A DNA stretch of 64,000 nucleotides from positions 4,792,001 to 4,856,000 of the forward strand of contig NZ_CP011270.1 of NCBI RefSeq assembly GCF_001610835.1, read 5' to 3'. The translations under genes and the position numbers were made by a program. Of this stretch, positions 12,646 to 57,951 are shown in pieces. Every line of letters begins with the position of its first letter. Position 1 is the stretch's first letter. The stretch is from Planctomyces sp. SH-PL14. GTDB taxonomy: Bacteria; Planctomycetota; Planctomycetia; Planctomycetales; Planctomycetaceae. Under the pieces are notes generated by a model. The model was given only the letters and a program-made list of their open reading frames with translations. It was not told the origin of the DNA and did no database searches.

Positions 12646-12656
12646 CAACTCGAAAC

Positions 12657-12984: not shown

Positions 12985-13083
12985 AATCGGCGCGTCTTCG
13001 AATGACGCCGCCATGACCTCTTGTGTTGGGTGTGTTCGTCTGTACACTTTGGCCGATCCACCTTACTTCTCCGAGGTCCGCCC

Positions 13084-13587
13084 ATGAGCTATGCCGACAC
13101 CATCCTCCCCGAATTCGACCAGGAAATGGCCAGCACCCGCAAAGTCCTGGAACGCGTCCCCGAAGACAAATGGGACTGGAAGTGCCACCCCAAGTCGAAC
13201 ACCATCGGCTGGAACGCCAACCACGTCGCCGAGATCCCCGGCTGGGTCGAAGGCTCGCTCTTTCAGGACACCTGGGACTTCGCCCCCGTCGACGGCCCCA
13301 AATACGAGTTCCCCACCTTCCGCACCCGCCAGGAAGTCCTCGACTTCTTCGACAAGAACGTCGCCACCGCCCGCAAGGCGATCCAGGAAGTGAAGGACGA
13401 AGAGCTCGGCAAGATGTGGTCCCTCCTCCAGGCGGGCGAGGTCATCGTCACCCTGCCCAAGGGAGCGGTCGTCCGCAGCTTCGTGCTGAACCACCTCATC
13501 CACCACCGCGCCCACCTCTGCGTCTACCTCCGGCTCAACGACATCCCGGTCCCGGGCATGTACGGCCCCTCCGGCGACGAAGGCTGA
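13084..13587 (+). CDS. DinB-superfamily protein
   Basis: 167 residues from ATG 13084 (MSYADTILPEFDQEMASTRK); 21 upstream in-frame residues look non-coding. It is a four-helix DinB/YfiT-like fold with conserved histidines in WNANHVAEIPGW and VLNHLIHHRAH, the two metal-binding positions of the family. It is probably a metal-dependent thiol S-transferase or of unknown activity; many members act with bacillithiol or mycothiol. Cytoplasmic. It ends 144 nt before the P450 gene on the same strand. Confidence 0.85.
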   Translation: MSYADTILPEFDQEMASTRKVLERVPEDKWDWKCHPKSNTIGWNANHVAEIPGWVEGSLFQDTWDFAPVDGPKYEFPTFRTRQEVLDFFDKNVATARKAIQEVKDEELGKMWSLLQAGEVIVTLPKGAVVRSFVLNHLIHHRAHLCVYLRLNDIPVPGMYGPSGDEG

Positions 13588-13731
13588 CGGCAACCGCATG
13601 AGGCGACATCGTGTCCTTCGATGTCGCCTCGGCTCCGGCCCGGTTCGGCGGACGAAGGCCGATTGCCTTTGCATCCCGGATGAGTTCCGCGTACGAGAGA
13701 GACTCGTCCCGAGACGCGCCTCCTCGATCCC

Positions 13732-15108: not shown

Positions 15109-15128
15109 CGCCGCCAGAAAAGACAAAG

Positions 15129-15155
15129 AGCCGAAGCGGATTGACCGCTTCGGCT
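15129..15155. terminator. Intrinsic-terminator-like hairpin after P450
   Basis: Perfect 11-bp stem, AGCCGAAGCGG with loop ATTGA and CCGCTTCGGCT. On the minus strand the following bases are T-rich (CTCTTTGTCTTTT), so it looks best as the terminator of the small minus-strand gene. On + there is no T-run. It probably serves this convergent junction. Confidence 0.7.
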
Positions 15156-15216
15156 CTCAAGATTCAGACGTCACTCTCAACAACAAGCGGACAGCGCGGC
15201 CCTGCGGCCGGACGAG

Positions 15217-15414
15217 TCACCGGATCGCACATCCCACGGCCACGAGCACCGTGGCGAACGCGAGGGCCAGAGCGGTCAATCGGATCCGGAACTGGCTGCG
15301 GCGACGGACGATCGTCTGCACGGCTTCCTGACGGGCGAGGCGTTCGAGGAGATCGTCTTCCAGGCGGCGGTGGGTGGAGACCCAGGCGGGACGGATTTTG
15401 GAAACTTGGGACAT
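15217..15414 (-). CDS. Small tail-anchored membrane protein
   Basis: 65 residues from ATG 15414 (MSQVSKIRPAWVSTHRRLED). A charged amphipathic N-terminal half (LLERLARQEAVQTIVRRRSQ) is followed by one C-terminal hydrophobic helix (LTALALAFATVLVAVGCAI). The upstream extension to 15651 does not look coding. The function is unknown. The gene is short and its ribosome-binding site weak, so existence is likely but not certain. Confidence 0.55.
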   Translation of the reverse strand: MSQVSKIRPAWVSTHRRLEDDLLERLARQEAVQTIVRRRSQFRIRLTALALAFATVLVAVGCAIR

Positions 15415-37308: not shown

Positions 37309-38916
37309 ATGCGTTATTCCCATTCTGTCAGGGGCGTGGATCTTGCCCGTTGGGTCGGCGGCCTGGCCATCGGTCTCGCCTGCGCCACGGCGTCCGTTCG
37401 CGCGGAGGAGCTGGCGGTCGCTCCGGAATCCCTCCCGGCTCCGCCGCGGGAAGGACAGACGCTGATCCTCCCGGAGAGCGAAACTCCGCCGCCGGTCGCG
37501 CTGAACCGGTTCCTCGGCTCGCAGTCCTGCGGCGCCTCGAACTGCCACGGCAACCCGAACCGCGAAAACCTCGTCCTCTCCTCCTACCACTTCGTGATGG
37601 ACCGAGACCCGCACCAGAAGGCGGGACTGGTCCTCTACAACGAACGCTCCCGAAACATGGTCGAGCGGCTGAAGCTCGGCGTTCCGGCCTGGAAGGCCAA
37701 GGAATGCCTGGTCTGCCACTCCCCGGGTGCGGTCAACGCGTTTGATCCGTCGCTCGTCTCGGCCCTCGTCCGGGACGGAATCGGCTGCGAGTCGTGCCAC
37801 GGGGGCGCGGAGGGCTGGCTGGCCGCCCACCGCAGCGCCGAGTGGAAGTTCCCGGATATCTGGTCGGAAGAGCGGAAGACCGCGGCCGGCTTCAAGACGA
37901 ACAAGAACCTCGCCACCCGGGCCCACATGTGCGCCGATTGCCACGTCGGCAGCCCGGGGCAGCAGGTGGATCACGACCTGATTGCCGCCGGACACCCGCG
38001 GCTCAACTTCGAATTCGCCGCCTATCAGGCCCTCTACCCCAAGCACTGGCGGGTCTCCGACGACCGGGCCCGCACACCGGTCGCGGGGGGCGAGGCGTCG
38101 GTCCGGGGCTCGACCTTCGAATCGACGAGCTGGCTCGTCGGACAGCTCGTCACGGCCGATCATGAGCTCGCCCTGCTGCTGAACCGCGCGGAACGCTCCG
38201 GCAAGTCCGGACCGGAACTGGCGCAGTTCGACTGCTACGCCTGCCACCACGAGCTCCAGGACCAGAGCTGGCGGCAGGTGCGAACGAATTCCAAACTCAA
38301 GCCGGGCGAGATCGGCTGGGGAACGTGGGGACTGGGGCTCGTCGAATCGCTTCCGCCCGCCTACTCGCTCCTCAATGCCGAGCAGTTCCAGAAGGACGCC
38401 GCCCTCCTTCGCGGCCACCTCCAGACGCTGCAGGCCCGGCCGGACGTGATCCACTCTCCGGCGACCCGGATGCGGGCGGAGCTGCAGGCGGCCCTCGCGA
38501 AGATTCCGCAGCAGCGGTACGACGCGGGTTCGGTCCAGACCGTCCAGGACGGGCTCCTCAAGGACCGGAACGAACTGGTCCAGGGGGGCTGGGACCGGAC
38601 GACGCAGCTCTATCTGGCGACCGCGGCCTTGCAGAATGCCGGCCGAGAGGCCCGGGGCCTGATCGGCGGGACGCCGGGAGCGGAGGACGCCTCCCTCCTC
38701 AAGGTCCGCCAGCTCCTTTCGTTCGATCCGGTGAGCGGGGCGCCGCGGACCTTTGAGATCACGGACAGCCCCCGATATCGTAAGGGGACCCCGGACGAGA
38801 TCCTGCGGGCTTTTGAAGAGTACCTCCAGACCCGGCCACGAGTTGAAGCGGCCGTGCCTGCGGACGCGCTTCCGCCGGTGGCCGACCAGAGTCCTCTCCT
38901 TCTTCCACGGCAGTAA
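37309..38916 (+). CDS. Exported five-haem cytochrome c
   Basis: 535 residues with a signal peptide (..GGLAIGLACATASVRA/EE). Haem-binding motifs: C74 GASNCH (CX4CH), C133 LVCH, C160 ESCH, C208 ADCH and C309 YACHH. The segment between the first four resembles the cytochrome c554-type fold (a haem pair, then GHPRLNFEFAAYQ, whose His may be a distal ligand). The C-terminal 200 residues are helical and haem-free. Periplasmic or outer-surface electron carrier. The next cytochrome gene starts 7 nt after its stop, so the two form an operon and are probably paralogues or partners. Confidence 0.9.
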   Translation: MRYSHSVRGVDLARWVGGLAIGLACATASVRAEELAVAPESLPAPPREGQTLILPESETPPPVALNRFLGSQSCGASNCHGNPNRENLVLSSYHFVMDRDPHQKAGLVLYNERSRNMVERLKLGVPAWKAKECLVCHSPGAVNAFDPSLVSALVRDGIGCESCHGGAEGWLAAHRSAEWKFPDIWSEERKTAAGFKTNKNLATRAHMCADCHVGSPGQQVDHDLIAAGHPRLNFEFAAYQALYPKHWRVSDDRARTPVAGGEASVRGSTFESTSWLVGQLVTADHELALLLNRAERSGKSGPELAQFDCYACHHELQDQSWRQVRTNSKLKPGEIGWGTWGLGLVESLPPAYSLLNAEQFQKDAALLRGHLQTLQARPDVIHSPATRMRAELQAALAKIPQQRYDAGSVQTVQDGLLKDRNELVQGGWDRTTQLYLATAALQNAGREARGLIGGTPGAEDASLLKVRQLLSFDPVSGAPRTFEITDSPRYRKGTPDEILRAFEEYLQTRPRVEAAVPADALPPVADQSPLLLPRQ

Positions 38917-38923
38917 AAGGGAC

Positions 38924-40702
38924 ATGATGCGCGGCCAGATGCAGTTCGCGGCGTTCGCGGCGTGGAGCTGTCTTGCGGTCCTGACGGCGTCCGGAACGGC
39001 GCGCGGTCAGGAGAAGGGACAGTCCGGCGGCAAGATGCCGTGCTACTTCGGCACGCCCGAATCGGGCGCCCGCCGCGTCGACGGCATCCGTTCCTGCACC
39101 CTCTGCCACGGGCGGACCGGGGCGAGCTCCGAGCTGGCGCTGCCCGATTTCCAGTTCGAGGACGACGGCTTCGTCCTCCTCAATGAACTGGTGACGTGGG
39201 CCAAGGACGACAAGCACTACCAGGCCTACGCGGTCCTGCACAACGACCGCTCGAAGGAGATGGCCCGCCGGTTAGGGATCGTCGAAGATCCAAAGGATCC
39301 GAACTCCAAGTCGTTGATCCATCTCGACGCGCGGTGCCTGGGCTGCCACAGCTCGGTCCCGCTGAAGCAGATTCCCCGCCGCGACGGCGCGCCGAACCTG
39401 GCGAGCGTCGATACGCTGGCCGATCCGCGCTACAACCTGGGCGTCTCCTGCGAAGGGTGCCACGGTCCGTCTTCGAAGCTCGAAGGGGACAAGGCGGCCG
39501 GCGGCTGGGCGGCGGCCCACTGGCAGGACCCGAAGTGGCGGACGATGCCCGCCGGCGAGAAGTACAACGACTACGGTTTCTGGGACGTCCGGTCGGCCCG
39601 ATCCCGCGCCAAGATCTGCCTCTCCTGCCACGTCGGCAATGTGGACGAGGGGAAGGTGGTGACGCACGAGATGTATGCCGCGGGGCATCCTCCGCTCCCG
39701 AGCTTTGAGCTGGTCGGGTTTGTCGCTCAGGAGCCGCGGCACTGGCGGAACCTGGAAGACAAGGCCCCGAAGATTCGCGACGCCTTCCTGAAGGCCCGCG
39801 GCGAGAAGATGGAAGCGGACGAGCTCCGCCAGACGCGGGCCCTGATGGTTTCCGCCCTGATGTCCGTCAGCGAGTCGATGCGGCTCAGCGCGGACCTGAT
39901 TGAAGTCCCGGCGGGTGCGAGCGTTTCGGGCTCGACCTGGCCGGAGCTGGCGAACTTCTCCTGCTACGCCTGTCACCACGATCTCAAGCGGGACGGATGG
40001 CGGCAGTCGCGGCCCCGGACGAGCGTTCCTGGCCGGCCGACGCTGCACGAGTGGCCGACCGCGATGGCGATGATTGCCGCGGGCGTGCTGGGTGAGCAGG
40101 ACGAGCTGAAGAAGCAGATGGACGAAGTGCAGACCGCCCTCAATGCGGCTCCTTTCGGCGAGAACAAGCAGCTTCTGGCGGCAACGCGGAAGCTGGCCGA
40201 CACGGCGGACACGATGGCGGTCCAGTTGGAGGCGAAGGTCCTTCGCGAGGCGGATGGGAAGGAGATCCTGAAGAAGATCGCCACCTACGGATCTGAAGAC
40301 CTGTACGACTACGACACTGCCCGGCAGCTGGTCTGGGCGTATGAGCGGGTCTATGCGGAGCTGCTGAAGAAGGCGGACAAGAGTGCCCCGGCCGCCGCGA
40401 CGGAAGGGGAAGTCGATCAGGCCAAGGAGTCGGAGAACACCTCGAAGGCGTTGGCCTGGAAGGGGTGGATGGTTCAGGAGAAGCCGCTGACGGAGTCGCA
40501 GCAGATTTTGAAGTCGCTGGAGTCGTCGCTGGTTCTGGATCTGCGGACCGGTTCGACGACGACGACGAAGTTCCCAGGTGAGCGGCAGGCGCGTCCGCAG
40601 ACGGATGTCGATTTGTCGAAGACGTTGCCGGTCCTCGGTTCTTATGATCCGGCAACGGTTCAGGGGGCGTTCAAGCGGCTGCTGGTTCAGCCCGCGCCGT
40701 AG
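38924..40702 (+). CDS. Exported five-haem cytochrome c (partner of preceding gene)
   Basis: 592 residues from ATG 38924, preceded by AAAGG; a longer open frame from 38753 overlaps the previous gene and is unlikely. Signal peptide to about GTARG/QE. Haem motifs at C58 TLCH, C138 LGCH, C176 EGCH, C232 LSCH and C347 YACHH. It keeps the AAGHPPLPSFELVG and SCYACHHDLKRDGWRQSR blocks seen in the upstream cytochrome, so they are homologous, but the first site here is normal CX2CH. The C-terminal 240 residues are a helical haem-free domain. It faces the decahaem gene across repeat copy 12. Confidence 0.9.
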   Translation: MMRGQMQFAAFAAWSCLAVLTASGTARGQEKGQSGGKMPCYFGTPESGARRVDGIRSCTLCHGRTGASSELALPDFQFEDDGFVLLNELVTWAKDDKHYQAYAVLHNDRSKEMARRLGIVEDPKDPNSKSLIHLDARCLGCHSSVPLKQIPRRDGAPNLASVDTLADPRYNLGVSCEGCHGPSSKLEGDKAAGGWAAAHWQDPKWRTMPAGEKYNDYGFWDVRSARSRAKICLSCHVGNVDEGKVVTHEMYAAGHPPLPSFELVGFVAQEPRHWRNLEDKAPKIRDAFLKARGEKMEADELRQTRALMVSALMSVSESMRLSADLIEVPAGASVSGSTWPELANFSCYACHHDLKRDGWRQSRPRTSVPGRPTLHEWPTAMAMIAAGVLGEQDELKKQMDEVQTALNAAPFGENKQLLAATRKLADTADTMAVQLEAKVLREADGKEILKKIATYGSEDLYDYDTARQLVWAYERVYAELLKKADKSAPAAATEGEVDQAKESENTSKALAWKGWMVQEKPLTESQQILKSLESSLVLDLRTGSTTTTKFPGERQARPQTDVDLSKTLPVLGSYDPATVQGAFKRLLVQPAP

Positions 40703-40714
40703 TCTCGATTCACC

Positions 40715-41134
40715 GGGTCCAGGGGCACCCTGGTCAGGGGGTGCAGGGGGGAGAATCCCCCTTGCCCGCCGGAGGCTTGGCCGTCGAGAGATGTCTGAAG
40801 GAGTGAGTGTCCAGACGTGGACCGCGTGCCGGATGCCCCCTCACCAACCCGCGGGGATTTCAAAGCGAGCGGGGCAGGGTGAGCGCGTTCTCAGCGATAG
40901 CGTCTTCTTGTGGCGCTCAGCTGTCAGGTTGCCCGCTACATGATCTTCGAACCGATCGCGTCCAGCGGGGCACGCTGAAGCGTGGACTCCAACGCCGGCT
41001 CCACAAAGCGCACGCCCGTTACGTCCCACGGTTCCTCGTGGAAGCGCCTCCGGCGGCAAGGGGGTTCCCCCCCTTGACCCCCAGCGGCCATGGCACGTTG
41101 GGTTTGAGCTATCAGCGCCGTGCCGGCCAGGACG
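40715..41134 (+). repeat. Dispersed structured repeat, copy 12 (full, with 96-bp insertion)
   Basis: It fills the gap between two convergent cytochrome genes: the head is 12 nt after the 40702 stop and the tail 2 nt from the stop at 41137. The head hairpin is GGGGGA-GAA-TCCCCC, with an A-T closing pair. The tail hairpin is GGGGG-TTC-CCCCC-like. The centre is interrupted at 40877-40972. Confidence 0.92.
40877..40972. repeat. 96-bp insertion with 9-bp duplication inside repeat copy 12
   Basis: AGCGGGGCA occurs at 40868-40876 and again at 40964-40972. Removing 96 bp restores the sequence seen in other copies (..GCAAAGCGAGCGG.. joined to ..GAGTCC.CAACGCCGG). This is the footprint of an insertion with a 9-bp target duplication. 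The 87-bp insert has no clear terminal inverted repeats and no coding capacity. Confidence 0.65.
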
Positions 41135-41136
41135 GT

Positions 41137-44100
41137 CTACTGCCGCAGGAACGTTGGGTGCAGGCTCTCCCCGTAATACTGCTCCAGCTTCCGGTGCAGA
41201 TCGATCTCGCGGGGACGACGACCGTTGATCCCATAGTCGCGGACCCCATCCAGCACCTTGTACAAAGTGCGGCCGTCCGGTCCGAGATAAAGCCGCCGCT
41301 GCTCTTCCAGATTCAGCGGACGAGCCCCGACACGGCCGAACACCGAGATCTGATTCCCGCACTCGTCGACCGCACGGTCGCGGTCCACACCCTTCGACAC
41401 CGCAAGCGCCTCCCCGCCCTTCGGGATCACATACGTCCCGATCAGCTTGGGAACCGGCCGCGGCAGGAAACCGTCATAACCCGGAGTCTCCGGCGACGTG
41501 AGCTGGATCACCCGCAGACCGTTCTTGCCGTCCGCCACGAAGGCGAACTGGCTGGCGTAGTACACGCCGAGCTTCACGTCGTGAGCATCGTTCAGGCATC
41601 CGCCCGCATTGAACTGCAGGTACGGCTGCGGGTTCTCCGGGTTCGTCACGTCGAGGATCACGAGACCATCACACCCGGCCGCCACGTAGGCATAGTTACG
41701 GGCGACGTAGATGTTCTTCGCTTCCCGCATCGGGACCGCACAGACCGGCTTCGGCTGGGCCAGCTCGGTGACGTCCAGAACCTTCACCCCATCCTCGTCG
41801 CAGACGAAGGCGTAGCGGAACTGGACCTGGACCGCCCGCGGCTTGCGGAGCGTCTCTTCGCCCACGACCGAGACGACACACGGCTTCTTGGGATCGTTGA
41901 TGTCGACGACCACCAGTCCCTTCGGACAGCAGACATACGCGTAGGTCCCGACGATCGTCACCGACTGGGCCCCGTTGAGGAGGCCGTTCGGATTGAACTG
42001 GACATCCGCCTTCACAAAGTTGTTCAGCGGATTGCCGTCGAGCAGCGATCCGGCCCCGATCATCACGAGCCCCAGTTCGAGGTCCGTGCCGTAGATGTAG
42101 GCGTACACCGGGTGGACGTCCTGCTCGCAGTTCTCCGGCTTTTGCTTGCGAGTCGGGTCCGGAGCCACGGTCGTCGGCGCGGTGACCGACGTCGCGAACG
42201 GAGTCCGGACGTAGAACTTCTGCCCGACCGGTGAGACCGGGGCGGTCGTGACGCGTTCGGAGAAGCCTTTGTTCTCGATGAACGAGACGTCGAAGATCCG
42301 GAAGCCGGCGTCGCCGCAGGCGGCATACAGGAACTCGCCGCGGAGCTGGAGGCTCAGGATCTCCGGCGTCAAACGCGGGTGCAGCACGCCGTCGCTGATG
42401 TCCTTGCCGGGATGCTCGTCCGCTTCCAGCTCGTAGTCCTTCTCGACGTGCTCCTCGTACTTCTCCGGATAGACGATCTCGTGCATCGTGCTGCCGATGA
42501 CCGTCTGCGGCTCGTCCCGCTCGCTGACGATGACGGCGTGGAGACCCTCCTCGCCGGCGCCGACCCAGCAGAACCGCCCGATGAAGTTCATGAAGTTGGT
42601 CCCATGCATCATCAGCTGGGCCATCTGGGCGTTGTTGTCGTTCTGGATCGACAGGTGGCAGTCGCTGCAGTTCTTGGTCTCACCCTTGCCGCGGACGGTG
42701 TGCGGGACGTTTGTGCTGAAGGCGATCCCGCTCAGGCCGTCGGCTGAGATCGTCTGCTGCTGCTGGTAGATCGCTTCGCGGTTGGCGTTGTACGACGTCA
42801 CGTGGATGGCGCACGAGGACCGCGAGGGGCCGATCCGGTTGTTGGTGACGTTGCCGTCCTTGGCCAGCATGTAGATGTCTTCCCGCAGCGTCTGGAAGTT
42901 GTACGAGACGTAGTTGCGGGTGACGTCCCCTTCGTTATGCAGGGCGGGCAGCTTCTTGTTGGCCTTCTGCGGCAGGTGGCAGCCGTAGCAGCTCGGGTTC
43001 CACGACGAGTGGCACGCGATGCAGCTCATGTGCTCGTTGCTGTGGGCGCACTGCGTCTCCTGCTCGGGGACGCTGCCCCAGATCGTCTGGCCGTTCTCGT
43101 CGCGGCGGATCGTCTTCGCCAGGGCCGAGAGGGCGTTGTAGTGCCGGTGCTTGGGGTCGACCGTGTCGACAACCTGCTTCACTTCCCAGCTCAGGTCCGC
43201 CTCGACCATCGAGTTCTGGACGATTTTGTCGTCCCGGACTTCGAACCGCCGCTTGCCGAACGGCGTCTTCATGTTCGTCAGGTCGCGGCCGTTCGGATAC
43301 GGGTCGGGACGCTCCTTGGCGGCGGGGCCGGAGGTCAGGAGCTTCGGGATCCCGTTGAAGAACCGGACCGCGTGCTTGTCCGTCGTGCCGTGGCAGTCCT
43401 CGCAGGCGATTTCGATCGCCGCCCGGACTTCGCCGTACAGCTTGCCGTTGCCGTGGACGTCCTGGATGAAGTGGCAGTCGACGCAGTGCATCCCCTTCTC
43501 GAGGTGGATGTCGAGCATGTGGACGGGCGAGCCCTGCTGAAGACGCAGGAGGTCCTCCTCCATCTTCTCCACCTGAGCCATCGTCTTCTCGTCGATGTTC
43601 CGGTGCAGCTTGCGGGCCTGCATCGGGAAGTTGACCGCCCGCTGCCGGTCCTCGGCGGTCGGCTCGGGGATCATGTTCCCCTGGTGGTCGAGGTGGTTGC
43701 CGAAGCGGTCCTTCTTGAAGACCGCCTTGAACGCCCAGCCGTGGCCGTGGAAGTCCGAGAAGTGGGTTTTGCGGGCTTCGGGGTTCAGCGAGACGAGGTT
43801 GTCGAGGAACTCGGGGTTCGTCAGGTTCGTGCGGGCCGCGATCTCGTTCGGGTCCTGCATCTGGGCCTGCGTGAATTCTTCGGAGGTCGGGTCCTTCTCT
43901 TCCTTCGGATAGATCAGGTCGCCGTCGGTCTCCATGTCCCACCACATGTAACCCAGGTAGCTGTTCATGACAGTCGTTCCGGGATGGATGTGGCAGACGA
44001 TGCACTGGCTGGTCGGGACGCCGGTGACGAAGCGGTGGCCGACCGGGTGGCCCGGCTCGTCCTTGGGGATCGTCGGATCGATTGCCTCGATCAGGTCATC

Positions 44101-45264
44101 CGGAGCCGAGGCCGCCTTCCCCTTGTTGCCGTACTTGGCCCACGGGCCGGAGTGCACCGGCGAGCGGTCGTTGGCGTAGATCATGTGGCACGACGTGCAG
44201 CCGCTCGAGCGGTAGTCGCCGGGGTGGTCGTTCGTGCCGAGGAAGTTCAGGGTCGGGTCGAAGAGGCGGGTCTTTTCGAGACCGACGAACACGGGGTCGG
44301 TCCGGTTGAGCGTGCCCAAACCGCGGTTACTGGACCGCTGCCGGGGACGGCCCGGTTCTTCGGTCCGTTCGGGAATCCCGACTTCGGGAGCGAACCGGCC
44401 CCCGCGTTCGAAGATGCGGAGGACGTTGCTGGGCTGCGTGACGTTGAACCGCGGCAGCGGATCGAGGTACGGCAGGACTCCCTTGGTGGCGGTCTCTTCC
44501 GGGGTCGGCGGGGGAACGGTCTGGATCCGCTGCGCGGTCCCGTTCATGCTGTAGCTTTCGCCGTACTTGGGCCACTTGTTCGGCACGGCCCCGTTGTTGT
44601 AGAGGGCCGCTCCCCACAGCATGCAGCCGTGGGTCATCATGCTCTTGTGAACTTCCAGGTTCTCCTTGGCATGGCAGCCCGATGCTCCGCAACTGATGTG
44701 GGCAATGCGGAGGTCGCCCGGGTTCACGAAGCGGATGAACTCCGGATTCTCGTGGTTGAGGGCCGTGTAGGAGCGGACCGGGTTGGCCGACGAGTAGAAG
44801 ACGTTCGGGAAGCGGGGATGGATGTGAGCCAGGTTCTTGTCGACGCAGTCGGCGTTGCCGCCGTGGCAGTCGGTGCAGCCGAGGTGGAACGAGAGCGGCC
44901 GGCCCGGCTGCTTGTGGGGGTCGTGCGAGTTCTGGTGGCACTGGAGGCAGCCGTGGCTCTTGGCCATCGCCTCCGATTCCGACTGCTTCGTGAAGTCGAC
45001 CCCCATCAGCTCCGGCGGGACCGGATACGGGGTCGTCTCGGCCTTCGCGTCGGCCGGCTTCGGATCCGCCGGTGCGGCCGAGGCCTGCCGGGTGTCGGCC
45101 GGGCGCGTCTCCGCCGGGAGCGGGTCTTCCTGAGCCTCGACCCGCGGCGCGAGCGCTTCGGAGTCATGCTCGGGGCCGGTCAGAATCGAGAGGACCACCC
45201 AGGCGGCAAGAAAGCCGGCGCCCGTCAGCCACTTGATAAGAGACTTGGTGTGCATTGGAGGCAT
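41137..45264 (-). CDS. Decahaem cytochrome c fused to an LVIVD beta-propeller
   Basis: 1375 residues. A signal or anchor helix (about 10-30) is followed by an Ala/Pro-rich linker to 85. Haem motifs at C106, C130, C192 (CGASGCH, CX4CH), C356, C421, C594, C621, C748, C759 and C866: ten haems, nine CX2CH and one CX4CH. From about 955 to 1290 there are about five LVIVD-type blades, e.g. YVCCPKGLVVVDINDPKKP, FVCDEDGVKVLDVTELAQP, YVAAGCDGLVILDVTNPENP. Extracytoplasmic, perhaps outer-membrane associated. It lies 217 nt downstream of the barrel gene on the same strand, a likely operon. The electron acceptor or donor is unknown. Confidence 0.92.
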   Translation of the reverse strand: MPPMHTKSLIKWLTGAGFLAAWVVLSILTGPEHDSEALAPRVEAQEDPLPAETRPADTRQASAAPADPKPADAKAETTPYPVPPELMGVDFTKQSESEAMAKSHGCLQCHQNSHDPHKQPGRPLSFHLGCTDCHGGNADCVDKNLAHIHPRFPNVFYSSANPVRSYTALNHENPEFIRFVNPGDLRIAHISCGASGCHAKENLEVHKSMMTHGCMLWGAALYNNGAVPNKWPKYGESYSMNGTAQRIQTVPPPTPEETATKGVLPYLDPLPRFNVTQPSNVLRIFERGGRFAPEVGIPERTEEPGRPRQRSSNRGLGTLNRTDPVFVGLEKTRLFDPTLNFLGTNDHPGDYRSSGCTSCHMIYANDRSPVHSGPWAKYGNKGKAASAPDDLIEAIDPTIPKDEPGHPVGHRFVTGVPTSQCIVCHIHPGTTVMNSYLGYMWWDMETDGDLIYPKEEKDPTSEEFTQAQMQDPNEIAARTNLTNPEFLDNLVSLNPEARKTHFSDFHGHGWAFKAVFKKDRFGNHLDHQGNMIPEPTAEDRQRAVNFPMQARKLHRNIDEKTMAQVEKMEEDLLRLQQGSPVHMLDIHLEKGMHCVDCHFIQDVHGNGKLYGEVRAAIEIACEDCHGTTDKHAVRFFNGIPKLLTSGPAAKERPDPYPNGRDLTNMKTPFGKRRFEVRDDKIVQNSMVEADLSWEVKQVVDTVDPKHRHYNALSALAKTIRRDENGQTIWGSVPEQETQCAHSNEHMSCIACHSSWNPSCYGCHLPQKANKKLPALHNEGDVTRNYVSYNFQTLREDIYMLAKDGNVTNNRIGPSRSSCAIHVTSYNANREAIYQQQQTISADGLSGIAFSTNVPHTVRGKGETKNCSDCHLSIQNDNNAQMAQLMMHGTNFMNFIGRFCWVGAGEEGLHAVIVSERDEPQTVIGSTMHEIVYPEKYEEHVEKDYELEADEHPGKDISDGVLHPRLTPEILSLQLRGEFLYAACGDAGFRIFDVSFIENKGFSERVTTAPVSPVGQKFYVRTPFATSVTAPTTVAPDPTRKQKPENCEQDVHPVYAYIYGTDLELGLVMIGAGSLLDGNPLNNFVKADVQFNPNGLLNGAQSVTIVGTYAYVCCPKGLVVVDINDPKKPCVVSVVGEETLRKPRAVQVQFRYAFVCDEDGVKVLDVTELAQPKPVCAVPMREAKNIYVARNYAYVAAGCDGLVILDVTNPENPQPYLQFNAGGCLNDAHDVKLGVYYASQFAFVADGKNGLRVIQLTSPETPGYDGFLPRPVPKLIGTYVIPKGGEALAVSKGVDRDRAVDECGNQISVFGRVGARPLNLEEQRRLYLGPDGRTLYKVLDGVRDYGINGRRPREIDLHRKLEQYYGESLHPTFLRQ

Positions 45265-45481
45265 CCCTGCCGCTGTCGACCACGATAAGTGGGTGAGCCC
45301 GCACTGTGCCGGACAGAATCCCTGGTCCGCTCAATGAGCCTGATCGCTCGGAACTGCAAGACTTTAGAAGATTTGGCGATTTCGCATCCAGACCAGTCTT
45401 GACCGGAATGCGGGCCCGCTCGCCCTCTGGCCCGCTCCCGCCGCGGACCCCGCCCGCGGGGCGTGGGTGGTCTCGTCTATC

Positions 45482-48220
45482 TCAGTATGTCAGAACGAGT
45501 TGCGCGAACGCCTGGTGGAGCGTGTCGGCGTCGACGTTGGCCGCGTTGGCGGTCGCGATCGGGTCGGTCGTGCCGTACAGCTCCTCGAATCCGCGGCCGG
45601 GAAGGAGGCAGGCGTAGCCGACCTGGAGGATCACGTTGTCGTTGTGGTACGGCCGGTATTCGATCCCCGCGCTGAGGTCGACCCCAATCGTCTTGTCGAG
45701 GTCGTCCTGGAACGTGAACCGCTCCAGCACCGACGTCTCGTCGAACTCCAGGTAGTTGGCGTTCGTGACCAGCCGCAGCTTGGGGGTGATCTCGAAGTCC
45801 ATCCCCAGGTTGAACAGGAGCAGACCGGGGTTCACGAAGTTCGACTGCCCCTGGAACTTGTTCGACACCAGGTCCGGGAACAGGCTGTTGCGGCCCGTCA
45901 GACCGACGTTGAACAGCTGGATCTGCTGCCGCTGCCAGAAGCTGAACTCGCCCCCGGCGAAGTTCGGGTTGTCGAGGATGCCGTCGAAGCCGTTCGCGTT
46001 GCCGTCCTTCGGATCGTCGTCCCCCGAGGCCCACAGAAACGAGGCCCGGAACCGGATCCAGTCCCGGTCGTAGGAGAGCTCGATGGCGGCGAGCTGGGCG
46101 TTGATGTCCTGCTGCTGGCCGGCGATCGGGTTCGAACTGTCCTTGCCGACGACCCAGTAGAAGGAGTTCGAGACGTTGACCCGTCCCATGTGCCCTTCGC
46201 CCGTGAAGCCGAGGTAGGTCGCTTCGACCTTGTGCGGGGCCGCGTTCCCCGCCGCGTCCGGGCGGACGAGGAAGCCGTTCTTGTCGAACCGCTTGCTCGG
46301 CCCGTCGATGTTGTGGTGGATGCTGGCCTGCGCCGTGTAGCCGGGGAAGACGAAGTCCTGCCGGTAGTAGTTGGCAATGAACACGTCCTGGTTGCGGTCG
46401 CTGAACGTGTTGAGCTGGCTGTTGGTGTCCTTCTCCGCCTGATTGAAGTAGACGAGGTTGAACTGGTCGCGGTTGGCGAACCGCGTACCGAACAGCCGCA
46501 CGCCGCGGTTGATGTCCGAGAAGATGAAGCCGCGGAAGTCGCTGGTGAACGGCTGCGACCCGATGCGGGCCGACAGGAAGTCGTAGTCCGGGCTGAGGTC
46601 CGCGAGCTTGGCTTCGAGGAAGTATTCTTCGATGGCCAGGAAGTTGTCCTGGCGGGTCGTGCCGCGGCGGACGTCGGGATTGACGACGCCGAGCTCGTTC
46701 ACGTCGAGGTAGTTGAAGTTGAAGATCGGGGTGACACGGACCGCCCAGTCGATCGGCTTGAACGCGCTGTTGCCGTGGAACAGCTCGACGCTCAGCCTGA
46801 AGAAGTTCGTCGTGAAGTACTGGTTCGGGTCGCCGAAGAACTCCTGCTGGCCCGGGTTGACCGTACTTTCGAACGGCGTCGTGGCGGTCGGGACCTGGCG
46901 GTACTCGTTGATGAGCAGCGCCTGGCCGGTCAGCTTGAGGAAGGTGTGCTGGCCGATGACCGGGAAGTCCCCCTTGAGGACGTTCTCGTTGTACGGGTCC
47001 CACCAGTGCCCTTCCTGGTACGGGTAGTCGTCGACCGGGGGGTGCCCCTTGCCGTACCGGTCCCAGGCGGGGGAGCCGGAGCGCCACCGGTCGGCGAGCG
47101 GGACGAAGTGGCTGTCGAGCTGGTAGTCCTCGGCGGCGACGCTGGAGCGGCCGGTGTAGCCTAGCGGGGCGTCGACGGGATGCGTGAAGAAGCCGGCGTC
47201 CGGATCCTCGAAGGAGGGATCGGTAAAGACGTCGTCGGAGGGGAACAGCGGACGATCGAGGACCTCCGGGCGGACCCGGCCCATGCCGTCGAGGCTGGCG
47301 AGGCCGTCTCCCATCAGGCTCCGCGATTCGCCCGGCGCGTACTCGGCGGGGAAGAAGGGGTCGCCCGGGAAGGGCGTCGTCTCGTCACCGGTGCTCGCGA
47401 GCTGCGCGAAGGGGAGGCCGAGCGTCGCGCTGCCGATGGCGGCGGTGCCGACATCTCCCTCGCTCTCCAGGCCGGACCGGTTCCCGGCCCGCCGCAGTGC
47501 GGGAGGAGCCGAGGGGGCCGGCGATTCCGAGGGTTCCCACCAGTCCGTATTGACGGAGATCCGGACCGCCTCCGGCTCCTCGGTCGCCGGATTGGCGGCG
47601 GGAGGGGACGGGAACTGCGGCTCGGCCGGGCGGAGAGACGTCCGCGGCCGCGAAGGAGACGGGGCGGCGTCGCCGATCGACTTGCGGGCGGGAATCGGGC
47701 TGGTCGTGGCGGGGACGTTGCCGAAGTCGGCGAGCGCCAGGCGGGCCTTGGCCTGGACGATCGCGTTGCGGTCGTCCAGCGTCAGCGCCCGGATCTGCTC
47801 CATGGCGGCTGAGTTGAGTTCGTATCGGCCGGAGACTTCGACCGCCTGACCCCGGACATGACTGTCGGAGTCGGACAGGAGGGCCAGCAGCGCCTCCTCG
47901 GCCGAGATGTCCTGGTCCAGGTCGCGGATCGAGCTCTGGGCCTCCGCGTCGAAGGCCTGCAGGAACTCCTCGAGCGGGACCTCGGAGAGCGGCCGCCGCC
48001 CGCCGGCCGGGGCGATCGCCGCGCGGCTCGAACGGAAGGGGCGGGCCGCTCCCTCCTCCGCCGCGGGGATGTCGTCAGCCCAGACGACGGAGGTGGCCGG
48101 CGCGAGGCCGACCGAGAGCGAGAGGAACAGTCCGGCAAGCGGTCTTCGCAGGCGGCGACGAGGCCAGCTGACGCGAAGACCGTGACTGGTCCGCTTGCAC
48201 GACGCAGGGAGGATTGGCAT
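45482..48220 (-). CDS. Predicted outer-membrane beta-barrel with HEAT-like N-terminus
   Basis: 912 residues from ATG 48220; GTG 48250 is an alternative. Signal peptide to about SVVWA/DD. Residues 75-150 look HEAT-like (LLALLSDSDSHVRGQAVEVS, RNAIVQAKARLALADFG). A long Pro/Ser-rich linker follows to about 340. From about 400 to the end there are repeated alternating strands with aromatic ends (FTTNFFRLSVELFH, AVRVTPIFNFNYLDV, QFNLVYFNQAEKD, VEATYLGFTGEGHMG, RLRLVTNANYLEFDE-type), finishing FAQLVLTY with a terminal aromatic. This is the profile of an outer-membrane porin-like barrel. Its linkage to the decahaem gene suggests an electron conduit (inference). Confidence 0.8.
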   Translation of the reverse strand: MPILPASCKRTSHGLRVSWPRRRLRRPLAGLFLSLSVGLAPATSVVWADDIPAAEEGAARPFRSSRAAIAPAGGRRPLSEVPLEEFLQAFDAEAQSSIRDLDQDISAEEALLALLSDSDSHVRGQAVEVSGRYELNSAAMEQIRALTLDDRNAIVQAKARLALADFGNVPATTSPIPARKSIGDAAPSPSRPRTSLRPAEPQFPSPPAANPATEEPEAVRISVNTDWWEPSESPAPSAPPALRRAGNRSGLESEGDVGTAAIGSATLGLPFAQLASTGDETTPFPGDPFFPAEYAPGESRSLMGDGLASLDGMGRVRPEVLDRPLFPSDDVFTDPSFEDPDAGFFTHPVDAPLGYTGRSSVAAEDYQLDSHFVPLADRWRSGSPAWDRYGKGHPPVDDYPYQEGHWWDPYNENVLKGDFPVIGQHTFLKLTGQALLINEYRQVPTATTPFESTVNPGQQEFFGDPNQYFTTNFFRLSVELFHGNSAFKPIDWAVRVTPIFNFNYLDVNELGVVNPDVRRGTTRQDNFLAIEEYFLEAKLADLSPDYDFLSARIGSQPFTSDFRGFIFSDINRGVRLFGTRFANRDQFNLVYFNQAEKDTNSQLNTFSDRNQDVFIANYYRQDFVFPGYTAQASIHHNIDGPSKRFDKNGFLVRPDAAGNAAPHKVEATYLGFTGEGHMGRVNVSNSFYWVVGKDSSNPIAGQQQDINAQLAAIELSYDRDWIRFRASFLWASGDDDPKDGNANGFDGILDNPNFAGGEFSFWQRQQIQLFNVGLTGRNSLFPDLVSNKFQGQSNFVNPGLLLFNLGMDFEITPKLRLVTNANYLEFDETSVLERFTFQDDLDKTIGVDLSAGIEYRPYHNDNVILQVGYACLLPGRGFEELYGTTDPIATANAANVDADTLHQAFAQLVLTY

Positions 48221-48936: not shown

Positions 48937-51900
48937 ATGGATTGGCTCAACAGCGTACGCCGGCACTTGACCAACAGCGATCGCCGGGTCCGGTCGACAG
49001 GACGCGAGATCTCCGTGGCCCAGGTCGAAGTCCTCGAAGAACGGGCGGTCCTCGGCGCACTCGCGCCGCTGCCGACCTCCGAGACCCCGACCACACTCTC
49101 GAGCGGATCGTCGAGCGAGACCGTCGCGTCCTCCTCCACGCCTCCAGCCGCTCCCACGACTCCCCCGACGACCGCAGAGACCACTCCGCCGGCTCCGACG
49201 ACAACGACGACGACCACCGAAACGTCGCTCGTTGACGCTTCGGCCGAAGATCAGCAGATGACCTTCGATGAGCCGGAGGCGAGCCCGCACTCCTCCGCCC
49301 CGGCGACCGAGAGCTCCAGCGGCGAGAGCCTCGATCCCTCCGTGACGATGGCCTCCGAATCGGGCCCCGCCGCGGACTCCGGGACGAACTCGTCGACCAC
49401 CACGGCCGCCGACTCCGCGCCGCCGCAGGAACTGGACGCCACCACCGATCAGCCGCCCGGCAACGTCTTCGTCGACAACGAGACGATGGCGGACTACGAG
49501 TTCTCCAAGACCAATATCCCGTGGTGGGACAGCGAGTCCCAGCCGGTCGTCATCAAGTACGACTTCCGCACGGAAGCGGGCTACGAGAACGAGATCACCG
49601 AGGAACAGATCGCCGCCGCCGAGCAGGCCCTCCAGGCGTGGTCGGACGCGAGCGGCGGACGGATCACCTGGGTCCGCGACACGGAAGCGGCGGCCGAGGA
49701 CATCCTCAACATCGGCGTCGGCGACCTGGGGGCCCTGGGCTACAACAGCTCGGCCGAAGGGACGCTGGGGATCAGCAAGAGCAAGCTCGACAACGCCGAA
49801 GGGGGCGGGCGGACCGTCATCGGGACGATCTGGCTCGACAACGCCGAGACCTGGGACAACACGATCGGAAACGGCAACCCGGCCGGCACCAAGGACTTCT
49901 TCACGGTCTTTGCCCATGAAGCGGGCCACGCGATGGGCCTCGAGGACGACCTCGGGAGCAGCATCGGCGCGGTGATGAACCCGCAGTACCTGATCGAGCG
50001 CGGGGTCGCGGGGATCGCGGAAGCCTACAAGACCGCGATCTTCTTCCCGCGGCCCGAGCCCGGGTCGCCGCTCGACGGCTATGCCGTCCATAACCTCGGC
50101 GCCGGGTTCCCGCAGCTGACGCAGGTGGAAGTCGGCCAGCTCCTCGACCGGGCCTCGGCCGCCTCCGCTTCGCAGGACGCGATCATCGCCATCGTCGACC
50201 GCAACGGGATCATTCTCGGCGTCCGCGTGGAGCAGGACGTCCTCAACACGATCGTCGATCCCGCCGTCCTGGCGTTCGCGATCGACGGCGCGGTGGCCAA
50301 GGCCCGCTCGGCCTGCTTCTTCTCGAGCAACGCCGGTCCGATTACCTCGCGGACCGTCCGCAACCTCAGCCAGACGACGATCACCCAGCGGGAAGTCCAG
50401 GGGAATCCGAACATCACGGATCCGAACTCGACGATCCGCGGTCCGGGGTTCGTCGCCCCGATCGGCCTGGGGGCTCACTTCCCGGCCGACGTCACCTACA
50501 CCCCGCCCGTCGACCTGTTCGCGATCGAGCACACGAACCGCGACAGCTTCTCGAACCCCGGTGCCGACAACATCAAGGGGACGGCGGACGACATCGACTA
50601 CCTGTATCGCCTGAACATCAATCCGGCCTTCGTCCCGGCCGGGCAGACGATCGTCCCGCCGCTGGCCTACGGTGAGCAGCGGTACGGCTCCGCCGATCTG
50701 GCCCAGGCGAACAACAGCTCGTTCCAGGGCCGCGGCATCGCCACGCTCCCCGGCGGTCTGGGAATCTACCGCGACACGGACGGGAACGGGCTCGGCGATA
50801 CGCTGATCGCCGGCATCGGGGTCTTCTTCCCCGGCGCGGACGGTTATGCGACCTTTGAACAGGGCTTCGTCAACGGCGTGGGGCAGACGTCCCTTGAGCG
50901 AACGAATGCTCCGAAAGTGCTTGAAGCCGAGTACATCGCGTTTGCCGCCCTGGGCGGCAGCCGTGGAGCGGCGGTCGCCGGAGCGGCTGGAGCGGTGGTC
51001 GGCGACATCGCGGGGATTCCGCCGGTGGCGGGTCTCGACCTGCTGTTCGGTCATATCGCGCTCGTCGGCATCAACCTGGAGATCTACGGTCCGCGGCCGG
51101 GGGTCAACGGGGTCCGCGACCTGCTGAACCTGGGAATCCAGGAAGGGGTCTCGAGCGGAGCCAACCAGGAAGTCCTGGCGGCCGGCGTCACCGTGCAAGG
51201 GGGTGGCGTGGTCGGAGCCGCGACCCTCCTTGACGGACAGGCGGTCGCGTCGGGAACGCTCGTGACTCCGCACAACTCCGCCGTGCCGGGCGGCCTGACG
51301 GCGGCCGACGTCCAACAGATTATCAACCAGGGGATTGCCGGGGCCGATGTGACCCGCTCGGCGATCCGCCTCGATGCCGACTTTACCCCCGGAGCGCGGA
51401 GCAAGATGGTCATCGCCATCACCGACACGACCGGGGAAGTCCTCGGTTTGTTCCGGATGGACGACTCCCTGGTGGACGCCCTGGAGGTGACGGTGGCCAA
51501 GGCCCGCAACGCGGCCTACTACGCCGACGCCGCCAAGCTGGCGCTCCATCCGGAAGACCAGGTGGCGGGGCTCCCCCCCGGCACGGCGGTCACGGGCCGG
51601 ACATTCCGCTTCCTGGCAGGCCCGCGGTATCCGGACGGCGTGGACCTTTCCCCTCCGGGACCCTGGTCGATCCTTCAGGACGCCGGTCCGGCGGGGATCG
51701 ATCCCCTGACGGGCGAGAACATCGGTGCGGCGGCGCCAGCCTCGCTCTTTGACAGCGTCCTCGGGTTCGACTCGTTCAACCCGCAGACGAACTTCCGGGA
51801 CGACAGCAACCTCGCCAACCGCAGCGGCGTGGCGTTCTTCCCCGGCAGCATCCCGCTCTACAAGAACGGCGTGTTGGTCGGCGGCCTGGGGGTCTCCGGT

Positions 51901-52047
51901 GACGGGGTCGACCAGAACGACGTCGTGACCTTCCTGGCGGCTCAGGGCTTCCTGCCTGACGGCGTCACGACTCAGCGGGCCGACCAGACGGCGGTCAACG
52001 GAGTCCGGTTGCCGTTCCTCAAGTTCAACCGCAACCCGTTCGGCTGA
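48937..52047 (+). CDS. Surface protein: metzincin-like protease plus two HbpS/GlcG-like domains
   Basis: 1036 residues from ATG 48937. The N-terminus has VEVLEERAVLGA, the planctomycete surface-protein signal, then a Thr/Ser/Pro-rich linker to about 165. The matrixin-like domain (about 180-345) has PVVIKYDFRTE, AAAEQALQAWSDASGGRITW and VFAHEAGHAMGLEDD (zinc site HExxHxxGxxD, His327 and His331), with the Met-turn GAVMNP. Two HbpS/GlcG-like units follow: about 390-700 (DAIIAIVDRNGIILGVRVEQ, with a long insertion) and about 785-1030 (KMVIAITDTTGEVLGLFRMD, ALEVTVAKARNAAYYA). HbpS domains bind haem-type ligands. It is divergent from the cytochrome-barrel unit. Confidence 0.8.
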   Translation: MDWLNSVRRHLTNSDRRVRSTGREISVAQVEVLEERAVLGALAPLPTSETPTTLSSGSSSETVASSSTPPAAPTTPPTTAETTPPAPTTTTTTTETSLVDASAEDQQMTFDEPEASPHSSAPATESSSGESLDPSVTMASESGPAADSGTNSSTTTAADSAPPQELDATTDQPPGNVFVDNETMADYEFSKTNIPWWDSESQPVVIKYDFRTEAGYENEITEEQIAAAEQALQAWSDASGGRITWVRDTEAAAEDILNIGVGDLGALGYNSSAEGTLGISKSKLDNAEGGGRTVIGTIWLDNAETWDNTIGNGNPAGTKDFFTVFAHEAGHAMGLEDDLGSSIGAVMNPQYLIERGVAGIAEAYKTAIFFPRPEPGSPLDGYAVHNLGAGFPQLTQVEVGQLLDRASAASASQDAIIAIVDRNGIILGVRVEQDVLNTIVDPAVLAFAIDGAVAKARSACFFSSNAGPITSRTVRNLSQTTITQREVQGNPNITDPNSTIRGPGFVAPIGLGAHFPADVTYTPPVDLFAIEHTNRDSFSNPGADNIKGTADDIDYLYRLNINPAFVPAGQTIVPPLAYGEQRYGSADLAQANNSSFQGRGIATLPGGLGIYRDTDGNGLGDTLIAGIGVFFPGADGYATFEQGFVNGVGQTSLERTNAPKVLEAEYIAFAALGGSRGAAVAGAAGAVVGDIAGIPPVAGLDLLFGHIALVGINLEIYGPRPGVNGVRDLLNLGIQEGVSSGANQEVLAAGVTVQGGGVVGAATLLDGQAVASGTLVTPHNSAVPGGLTAADVQQIINQGIAGADVTRSAIRLDADFTPGARSKMVIAITDTTGEVLGLFRMDDSLVDALEVTVAKARNAAYYADAAKLALHPEDQVAGLPPGTAVTGRTFRFLAGPRYPDGVDLSPPGPWSILQDAGPAGIDPLTGENIGAAAPASLFDSVLGFDSFNPQTNFRDDSNLANRSGVAFFPGSIPLYKNGVLVGGLGVSGDGVDQNDVVTFLAAQGFLPDGVTTQRADQTAVNGVRLPFLKFNRNPFG

Positions 52048-54927: not shown

Positions 54928-57900
54928 GTGAGGGCCCCGTTTCCGCGTTCGCTCCGCCGCCTCGCCCGACACGTGCGTAATCCCTTGCTGCTCGCCGATC
55001 GCCGCGTGCTCCTGTGCGGGCTGGTGGGAATCGCCATCTGGGGCTGCTCACCGGCCCCTTCCTCCGGCCCCATGCCCCCTTCCTCGCCGTCGGCATCGGA
55101 CCGACTGCCGGAGGCGCGGGCGGCCATGAAGGGGGGAAAGCTCGAAGACGCGTTTGCGATTGCCGATGCGATGGCGGCCGGAACGGGACCGCAGCGGAAC
55201 GCGGCACTGCTGATTGCCGGCGAAGTTCGTCAGCGGCAGAAGCGGTTCGACGAGGCGGTCGACCTGTTCCTGCGGATCGACGAAGTGGCGGACGAGTTCG
55301 TGATCGCCCGGCAGACGGCGGGCGACCTCCGGCTGCACCAGGGGCGGCTCAGCGACGCGGAATCGATCTGGCGGTCGACCCTGAGCCGCGCACCGACGGA
55401 CGAGTTCACACTCAATCGCCTCGCACTCGTCCTGGGATTGCAGGGGCGGCGGTGGGAGGCTCGTCTTTTTCTGGAGACCGTTGTCCGACAGGGGACCTGC
55501 ACGGCGCAGAACCTCCTGCTGCTAGGGGATCTCGACCGGACCTTGAACGTCGAGACCGAGGCGGAGCAGTATCGAGCCGCGGCGCCCGAGGACGTGGCGG
55601 CCCTCATCGGCTTGGCCAAGGTTCGCCGTGAGCAGGGGCGGTTCGACGATGCGGTGGCACTCCTGGAGAAGGTCGTCGCCACGCGGGAGGATCTGGACGA
55701 GGCGTGGGTCGAACTGGGACTGCTGGCGAGCGACCGCGGTGAGGCCGCCTTTGACGCCTGGGTCCGCCGGATCGCGGCGCGGCCGACGCTTCGGGAGCAT
55801 CCGACGTTCTGGCTCGCCCTGGGACGGCATGAGCAGGCGGCGGGGCGGCGCGAGACGGCGGCCCGCTGCTTCTATCAGGCGGCGCGGCTGAACCCGAACT
55901 CGATCCCCGCGCACTATCAGCTCGGGCAGCTCCTGACCGCGCTCAAGCGGACCGCCGACAGCGAACCGTTTCTCCTCCGGGCCGCGCGGCTGGAGCAACT
56001 GGCGGGCGTGCTGAACCGGCTTCATTCCGACCCGACGGCGGAACTCATGCTGGAGACGGCAGATCACCTCGACGCACTCGGGCGGCCCTGGGAGGCACGG
56101 CTGTGGATCCGCTTCGTCTGGCAGGCGGAACCGGCCCGGCAGCCGCAGATCCGCGAACGGCTCGCCCGCCGCGAGTCGGCTCTGGCGGACGACACCGTGC
56201 CGTTTGTCCTTCCGGAAACGTGCCCCGCTTTCCAGGTCGATCTCTCCGCTCTCCCGCTGCCGAAGCTGGCTCCTGCGGCACCCGGCTCCTCCGTCCCGGA
56301 GTCGACGTCCTCAGGGGCGTTCGCCTTCCGGTTCGAAGACGACGCTCCGGCGGCGGGGATCGAGATGACGTACTTCAACAGCGCCGACCCCGCGACCGAG
56401 GGGATGCGGATGTTCGAGTTCACCGGCGGCGGAGTCGGTGCGGCGGACTTCGATCGTGATGGCTGGCCCGACCTCTATTTGACACAGGGCTGCGTCCTTC
56501 CCCCGAGGCCCCAGACCTCGGCTGATCTGTCCCGGCTGGATCAGCTCTACCGCAACCGCGGCAACGGGACGTTTGCGAACGCGACCGCCGGGAGCACGAT
56601 CATCGAGCCCCGCTTCGGCCAGGGGCTGGCCTGGGGAGACGTCAATCACGACGGGTTCCCGGACCTCTATGTCGGGAACCTCGGGCCGAACGCTCTGTTC
56701 CTGAACAACGGCGACGGGACATTTTCAGAGGTGACCGCCGACCTCTCGGACGGCGGCGGGGACGCCTGGACCACGAGTGTCGGGATGGCGGACCTCGACG
56801 GGGACGGGGCGGTCGACCTGTATGCCGCCAACTACCTCGCTGGTGACGAGATCTATACGAAGATGTGCGTGACCGATGGCCGTCCGCGGGCCTGCCTTCC
56901 GATCGTGTTCCCCGCCGCGCCCGATGCGTTCCACCAGGGGACGGGCGACGGACGATTCGTCGAACGGACGAAGGCGGCCGGGTTCGATGTCCCGCTCGGC
57001 AATGGCCTGGGACTGCTGGTCGCGGACTTCGACGGCAGCCGGACGCTCGACGTGTTCGTCGCCAACGACGCGGTTCCGAACTTCTTCTTCAGCCGCGACT
57101 CCGCTGATCCGGGAGCCCCCTTCACCGATGTCGCCTTTGCGAACGGCACTGCAGTCGATGCGGAGGGGCGGCCACAGGCCTGCATGGGGGTCGCGGCGGA
57201 CGATCTCGATGGCGATGGGGATCTCGATCTGTTCGTGACGAACTTCTATCTGGAGTCGAACACCTTCTACGAGAACCACGGAGAGGGGCTGTTCCGGGAT
57301 GCGACGCGCGACGCGGGGCTGAAGGAGCCGGGCTACAAGCTCCTCGGGTTCGGGACCCAGGCGATCGATGGCGACAACGACGGGCGGCCGGAGCTCGTTA
57401 TTGCCAACGGCCACATTGACGACTTTTCCTTTAAGGACATTCCGTTCCGGATGCCGCCGCTGTTTCTCTCGCGATCCGCACAGGGCCGCTTTGTCGAAGC
57501 GGCTCCGAAGGCGATGGGGCCGTACTTTGAGAAGGAGTGGTTGGGGCGGGGGCTGGCGATGCTCGACTGGAACCGCGATGGGCGTGAGGACTTCGTTGTG
57601 ACACATCTCGAAGACCCCGCGGCTCTGCTGACGAACCGGACGGCGACGGGTGGCCGGTGGCTGAGTGTTGAACTGGTGGGTCGCGAGTCTCCTCGGCACC
57701 CCGTCGGTGCGCAGGTCACTGTCTCATCGGGCGAGACCAGGCGGACGCGGTTCCTCACGGCCGGTTGCGGTTATCAGGCGAGCAACTCGCCGCTGCTGCA
57801 CTTTGGGCTTGGGTCGGCGGGGGAAGTGGCGACGGTCGAGGTTCGCTGGCCGAGTGGTCGGATGCAGCGGTTTGAGGTGGTCCCGCTCGACCGGGAAGTC

Positions 57901-57951
57901 GTGTGTGTGGAAGGGGAGCCAAACATCGTTCCCAAAGTAGTCATCCGATAA
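54928..57951 (+). CDS. TPR plus FG-GAP/ASPIC-UnbV lipoprotein
   Basis: 1007 residues from GTG 54928. The signal peptide ends IAIWGC (lipobox Cys about 40). Residues 60-420 are TPR-like helical repeats (KLEDAFAIADAMAAG, RFDEAVDLFLRIDE, RFDDAVALLEKVVAT, RRETAARCFYQAARL). From about 470 FG-GAP loops follow (DFDRDGWPDLYLTQ, DVNHDGFPDLYVGN, DLDGDGAVDLYAAN, DLDGDGDLDLFVTN, DGDNDGRPELVIAN), then the C-terminal ASPIC/UnbV domain (WLSVELVGRESPRHPVGAQV, VEVRWPSGRMQRFEVV). It shares its C-terminal architecture with the 20618-22399 gene but adds a protein-binding TPR half. Surface lipoprotein, ligand unknown. Stop 10 nt before repeat copy 14. Confidence 0.9.
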   Translation: MRAPFPRSLRRLARHVRNPLLLADRRVLLCGLVGIAIWGCSPAPSSGPMPPSSPSASDRLPEARAAMKGGKLEDAFAIADAMAAGTGPQRNAALLIAGEVRQRQKRFDEAVDLFLRIDEVADEFVIARQTAGDLRLHQGRLSDAESIWRSTLSRAPTDEFTLNRLALVLGLQGRRWEARLFLETVVRQGTCTAQNLLLLGDLDRTLNVETEAEQYRAAAPEDVAALIGLAKVRREQGRFDDAVALLEKVVATREDLDEAWVELGLLASDRGEAAFDAWVRRIAARPTLREHPTFWLALGRHEQAAGRRETAARCFYQAARLNPNSIPAHYQLGQLLTALKRTADSEPFLLRAARLEQLAGVLNRLHSDPTAELMLETADHLDALGRPWEARLWIRFVWQAEPARQPQIRERLARRESALADDTVPFVLPETCPAFQVDLSALPLPKLAPAAPGSSVPESTSSGAFAFRFEDDAPAAGIEMTYFNSADPATEGMRMFEFTGGGVGAADFDRDGWPDLYLTQGCVLPPRPQTSADLSRLDQLYRNRGNGTFANATAGSTIIEPRFGQGLAWGDVNHDGFPDLYVGNLGPNALFLNNGDGTFSEVTADLSDGGGDAWTTSVGMADLDGDGAVDLYAANYLAGDEIYTKMCVTDGRPRACLPIVFPAAPDAFHQGTGDGRFVERTKAAGFDVPLGNGLGLLVADFDGSRTLDVFVANDAVPNFFFSRDSADPGAPFTDVAFANGTAVDAEGRPQACMGVAADDLDGDGDLDLFVTNFYLESNTFYENHGEGLFRDATRDAGLKEPGYKLLGFGTQAIDGDNDGRPELVIANGHIDDFSFKDIPFRMPPLFLSRSAQGRFVEAAPKAMGPYFEKEWLGRGLAMLDWNRDGREDFVVTHLEDPAALLTNRTATGGRWLSVELVGRESPRHPVGAQVTVSSGETRRTRFLTAGCGYQASNSPLLHFGLGSAGEVATVEVRWPSGRMQRFEVVPLDREVVCVEGEPNIVPKVVIR

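Follow-up and report, generated by a model that had tools for sequence, protein, structure and literature searches.

Analysis of the 64,000-nt stretch of DNA (the window) revealed a multihaem cytochrome locus that has, in our estimate, an even chance of being the outer half of an Ext-like trans-envelope multihaem chain, in which electrons would pass outward to a decahaem cytochrome. Neighbourhood and genome comparisons showed that the module to which this locus belongs was real, conserved and widely shared. As a system it is apparently undescribed; no earlier description was found among the hits and abstracts of the literature searched. The genes of the locus were as follows:

37309–38916, + strand: CYT5a, a c554-like pentahaem cytochrome of 535 aa (ORF, Pfam, motif count)
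~38927–40702, + strand: CYT5b, a pentahaem cytochrome of 591 aa, paralogue of CYT5a (ORF, Pfam, paralogue match)
41137–45264, − strand: DECA, a decahaem cytochrome with a C-terminal LVIVD propeller, 1375 aa (ORF, Pfam, alignment)
45482–48220, − strand: BARREL, a predicted outer-membrane protein of 912 aa without haem motifs (ORF, structure prediction)
48937–52047, + strand: M10/HbpS, a matrixin-type peptidase domain with two interrupted HbpS-like domains (ORF, domains, neighbourhood)

The first four genes lay side by side on the strands given in the preliminary description, which had reported two five-haem cytochromes (+) next to a ten-haem cytochrome and a 912-residue barrel (−). Their haem motifs were counted as 5 + 5 + 10 = 20 (18 CXXCH and 2 CX4CH), and the 20 haems predicted earlier were thus confirmed, provided that CX4CH is counted. 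The two CX4CH motifs were CGASNCH, the first motif of CYT5a, and CGASGCH in DECA. The DNA pattern coding for CXXCH had 19 matches in the window where 1.79 were expected (maximum of 5 in 100 shuffles), which ruled out a chance origin of the motifs, and 18 of the 19 matches fell inside the genes of the locus. CYT5a and CYT5b were separated by 10 bp. The TTG start of CYT5b at 38753 in the ORF list is probably too early, and M10/HbpS likely starts at ATG 48937 rather than at the listed GTG 48817. Neighbourhood clustering showed that this divergent gene was a conserved neighbour of BARREL, and the locus reached at least to 52047. Promoter- and terminator-like sequences in the region were at chance expectation, and the search for RNA families and tandem repeats gave nothing relevant there. 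Elsewhere in the window were a cytochrome P450 gene (13732–15108, +) and a gene for a protein with TPR, FG-GAP and UnbV_ASPIC domains (54928–57951, +).

Both CYT5a and CYT5b had weak c554-type Pfam matches, and CX4CH was the first motif in 28 of the 48 five-haem sequences of the CYT5 family. In DECA, the ten haem motifs lay between residues 106 and 870, about 770 residues in all, and the propeller occupied residues about 970–1320 (Pfam LVIVD repeats). Alignment of 14 homologues showed that all ten motifs were invariant, CX4CH included, and that many His residues were conserved; the latter could be the distal haem ligands. CYT5a, CYT5b and DECA were all long chains in which the haems were sparse and not densely packed. 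No lipobox was found in the DECA sequence; we place the protein provisionally at the outer membrane. Residues about 585–871 of DECA resembled Geobacter ExtM with 67–86 bits (80–86 bits for the members from Acidobacteria and Rokubacteria), far below the cut-off of 800, and DECA is therefore not an ExtM; part of this score may derive from the haem motifs themselves. Sequence searches revealed no convincing solved homologue of DECA or of BARREL.

AlphaFold2 prediction of BARREL residues 340–912 from 45 sequences (pLDDT 84.9) gave a beta-barrel made of the C-terminal 573 residues, in which 18 long strands were counted. The top fold match was Pseudomonas AlgE (alginate export), with a Foldseek E value of 1.6e-16 and a VIA-align Z of 27.8 (364 residues, rmsd 3.0 Å), followed by the OprD/Occ porins (Z 22–26). 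BARREL thus had the overall barrel of AlgE but differed from it in sequence (13–14% identity), in having no Pfam alginate-export match, and in its partners, as the recurrent neighbours of BARREL in the neighbourhood clustering were cytochromes. No NCBIfam match was found for BARREL, and no match to PF11854 (MtrB_PioB) was found either in BARREL or genome-wide. From standard barrel geometry, as an estimate and not from coordinates, the interior of an 18-strand barrel would be roughly 2 nm, so BARREL appears too narrow for a folded MtrA-type multihaem. The HEAT-like N-terminus that had been described was found as a Pfam match at residues 106–164, but its score was below gathering; a long linker joined this part to the barrel. 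The N-termini of BARREL homologues varied, being a weak HEAT match in the window protein and regulatory-like, by appearance only, in Terriglobia. In two acidobacterial barrels an N-terminal tetrahaem c3-type domain was fused to the barrel, an architecture that recalls Cyc2:

L159:5695–8016: tetrahaem-barrel fusion
L160:7562–9853: tetrahaem-barrel fusion

These fusions would provide a direct haem–barrel link in Acidobacteria, and their architecture suggests that haem work at a BARREL-type barrel is real in some members. In the structure prediction of the L160 fusion, the tetrahaem domain had a pLDDT of about 32–50, which is too low for the domain to be placed, and docking was not seen.

Among the 59 surveyed genomes, DECA was present in 23, the window's own counted, with identities of 58–71% where these were measured over most of the length; G040, which had only a weak propeller match, was left out of this count. 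BARREL was found in 22 of the 59 genomes; all 22 were among the 23 DECA carriers, none of the 36 non-carriers had it, and the sole carrier without it was a draft genome 78% complete. The probability of such an overlap by chance was about 7e-15, uncorrected for kinship. This result supported the earlier suggestion that barrel and cytochromes act as a single functional unit, since BARREL occurred only in DECA carriers (22/22). The two genes were unlinked in several genomes (e.g., G037, G038, G047, G054, G056, and G058), so that their co-occurrence is no by-product of linkage. CYT5 homologues (E<1e-20) were present in 22 of the 59 genomes, all of which had DECA. BARREL lay directly upstream of DECA at 45 of the 55 loci with enough upstream sequence; the conservation survey called for in the preliminary description thus showed a conserved and widespread set.

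In a phylum-wide sample of 195 planctomycete genomes, a strong DECA match was found in about 21 by our own count, while the automatic tally for the same sample was 91, weak domain matches included. A scan of named genomes gave 447 DECA relatives. The best 80 of the 447 came from Planctomycetota, Acidobacteriota, one Rokubacteria contig, and a few records titled only 'bacterium', and no Verrucomicrobia were among these 80. The phylogenetic tree separated the planctomycete group of the window, as one well-supported side, from a side that held the acidobacterial and rokubacterial sequences together with two deep planctomycete ones. Named carriers included Roseiconus, Limnoglobus, and Rubripirellula, which are described as aerobes, and this makes metal respiration less obvious.

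Clustering of neighbouring genes added five families, CYT10, CYTB, FeS-cNMP, a NuoE-NuoF fusion (NuoEF), and a double-HbpS protein, and showed that the window locus was one piece of a module recurring in Planctomycetota, Acidobacteriota, and Rokubacteria. CYT10 had 10 haem motifs and a single N-terminal hydrophobic helix. Its three to four hydrophobic helices, together with their His residues, make CYTB a putative b-type inner-membrane protein; it had no Pfam match, and its distribution nearly matched the set of genomes with DECA and BARREL. Cyclic-nucleotide-binding domains were present in the iron-sulphur protein FeS-cNMP, and many members of this family also had a HoxU/NuoG-like N-terminus. 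This N-terminus scored 167 bits against HoxU, and NuoEF scored 460 bits against NuoF, so NAD(H) entry is plausible where these genes are present. The double-HbpS homologue of Acidobacteria and Rokubacteria was lipoprotein-like and had no peptidase match. The gene order in Rokubacteria L161 was CYT10-CYTB-FeS/cNMP-NuoEF, then BARREL-DECA-CYT5-HbpS, and similar gene sets were found in Acidobacteria L167, L168, L181, L182, and L183.

In the window genome, FeS-cNMP and CYTB were located at 6.286–6.291 Mb, and a further CYT5 with CYT10 at 6.477–6.481 Mb. The FeS-cNMP protein of this genome was without the HoxU-like domain. No module-type NuoEF was found in the genome; its single NuoF-type match, a 459-aa frame, presumably belongs to complex I. 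The earlier remark that no CymA-like quinol oxidase was visible was correct for the region, but other parts of the genome held the module's own inner-membrane components (CYTB, CYT10, and FeS-cNMP, as above) and, at 2.64 Mb, a NapC/NirT-type gene (PF03264; G000:C1:2637242-2637469).

In the proposed chain, electrons would leave the cytoplasm via FeS-cNMP, with NADH feeding in through NuoEF where the gene is present, and would then pass to the b-type CYTB and the membrane-anchored CYT10 at the inner membrane. The pentahaem cytochromes would carry them across the periplasm to DECA, which would act at the outer membrane with the AlgE-type BARREL and the HbpS-like protein as its partners. We infer this order of transfer, its outward direction and the kind of acceptor. 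The most likely role of BARREL is to anchor DECA, or to pass its substrate or partner, and not to form a sheath round the row of haems. A broader proposal is a trans-envelope class common to Planctomycetota, Acidobacteriota, and Rokubacteria, in which a cNMP-controlled iron-sulphur protein (with NuoEF in many) would feed the b-type and decahaem proteins and then DECA at an AlgE-type barrel, the outside being reached without a haem-filled porin; we put this generalization forward tentatively and consider it somewhat improbable.

The layout can be compared with that of the Geobacter extHIJKLMNOPQS cluster, which encodes the ExtI barrel, the ExtKL pentahaem, the ExtM/ExtN multihaems, and the bc-like ExtO/ExtP (PMC5877670, PMC6148476). 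By description, the Ext cluster has an outer-membrane barrel, a periplasmic pentahaem, a large multihaem, and b-type inner-membrane input, and an MtrC-like surface cytochrome is absent from it (PMC5877670, PMC6148476). The layout predicted for the module is the same. The module differed from Ext in its LVIVD fusion, its FeS-cNMP and NuoEF input, and its HbpS-like partner, and the rhodanese-type ExtH was not seen in it. Like Shewanella MtrCAB, it had a barrel and multihaem cytochromes forming one unit. However, the MtrB barrel has 26 strands, whereas BARREL had 18 predicted strands and no MtrB_PioB match, and a dense MtrA-type subunit was not seen; the set differs from the Mtr systems, as had been stated in the preliminary description. 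He et al. 2017 (PMC5615132) proposed a novel electron transfer within the PVC group for porin-multihaem clusters of Verrucomicrobia; by description, the periplasmic partners in these clusters are octahaem, and in this they differ from the module.

The main rival to the trans-envelope chain is a reductase in the periplasm that is supplied by a dedicated substrate porin, in which case no electron would cross the outer membrane. The AlgE-type barrel would then admit a soluble substrate to the periplasm, be it an oxyanion, a sugar polymer, or some organic molecule, and DECA would reduce it there; we regard this reading as possible but rather doubtful. The nearest folds of BARREL are substrate channels (AlgE, Z 27.8; OprD/Occ, Z 22–26), and the partial similarity of DECA is to ExtM, in whose cluster ExtI is a proposed selenite/tellurite channel (PMC5877670). 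However, the lipoprotein-like or secreted HbpS partner and the haem-fused barrels suggest that redox work takes place at the barrel or farther out, and no gene for a substrate-specific enzyme recurred in the surveyed neighbourhoods.

An MtrAB-type conduit, with cytochrome haems inside BARREL wiring the periplasm to the surface, is clearly less probable. It would agree with the tight co-occurrence of barrel and cytochromes and with the natural tetrahaem-barrel fusions of L159 and L160, and a single haem in a small barrel is proposed for Cyc2-type proteins. However, the 18 strands (against 26 in MtrB) and the missing PF11854 match made such a sheath unlikely, no small haem-dense subunit was seen, and the poorly modelled tetrahaem domain of L160 was not docked. 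With an AlgE-type barrel of this width and the DECA haems spread as they are, the haem-filled porin conduit suggested earlier was not supported. An inward chain, in which an extracellular donor would be oxidised at DECA and electrons would be delivered to the quinone pool or, in members with NuoEF, to NAD, is just as improbable: multihaem carriers can work in both directions, HoxEFU-type enzymes are bidirectional and the named carriers are aerobes, but lithotrophy or carbon-fixation genes were not seen beside the module, and NAD reduction from a weak donor needs an energy input that the parts of the module do not provide.

If the outward trans-envelope chain is correct, many planctomycetes and acidobacteria would share a conserved electron route that starts in the cytoplasm or at the inner membrane and ends at the outer membrane; neither group is known for passing electrons to the outside. 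The entry points covered by an inner-membrane survey were CymA, CbcL/MtoC/MtrH, and ImcH, and NADH entry was absent from it (PMC6295460). As the NuoEF and FeS-cNMP inputs are unlike CymA, CbcL, and ImcH, and BARREL is unlike MtrB, the usual marker-gene searches would miss the module. The named cultured carriers of DECA, among them Limnoglobus roseus PX52, make the proposed chain testable.

Homologues of the inner-membrane and cytoplasmic parts were also found in other settings. At L094 (G018), positions 9183–15229, the FeS-cNMP, the b-type protein, and the 10-haem cytochrome adjoined a c554-like cytochrome; a bc-type cytochrome b lay upstream, and DECA-LVIVD and BARREL were absent from the genome. 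Judging from this locus, the inner-membrane unit may also work with other outlets. At L067:3997–6450 and L037:16809–18941, the CYTB and FeS-cNMP homologues carried long low-complexity repeats of the 'GGSPLDAIKAGGAKKP' and 'SPIEQMRARKAA' types, which were alike in style between the two partners.
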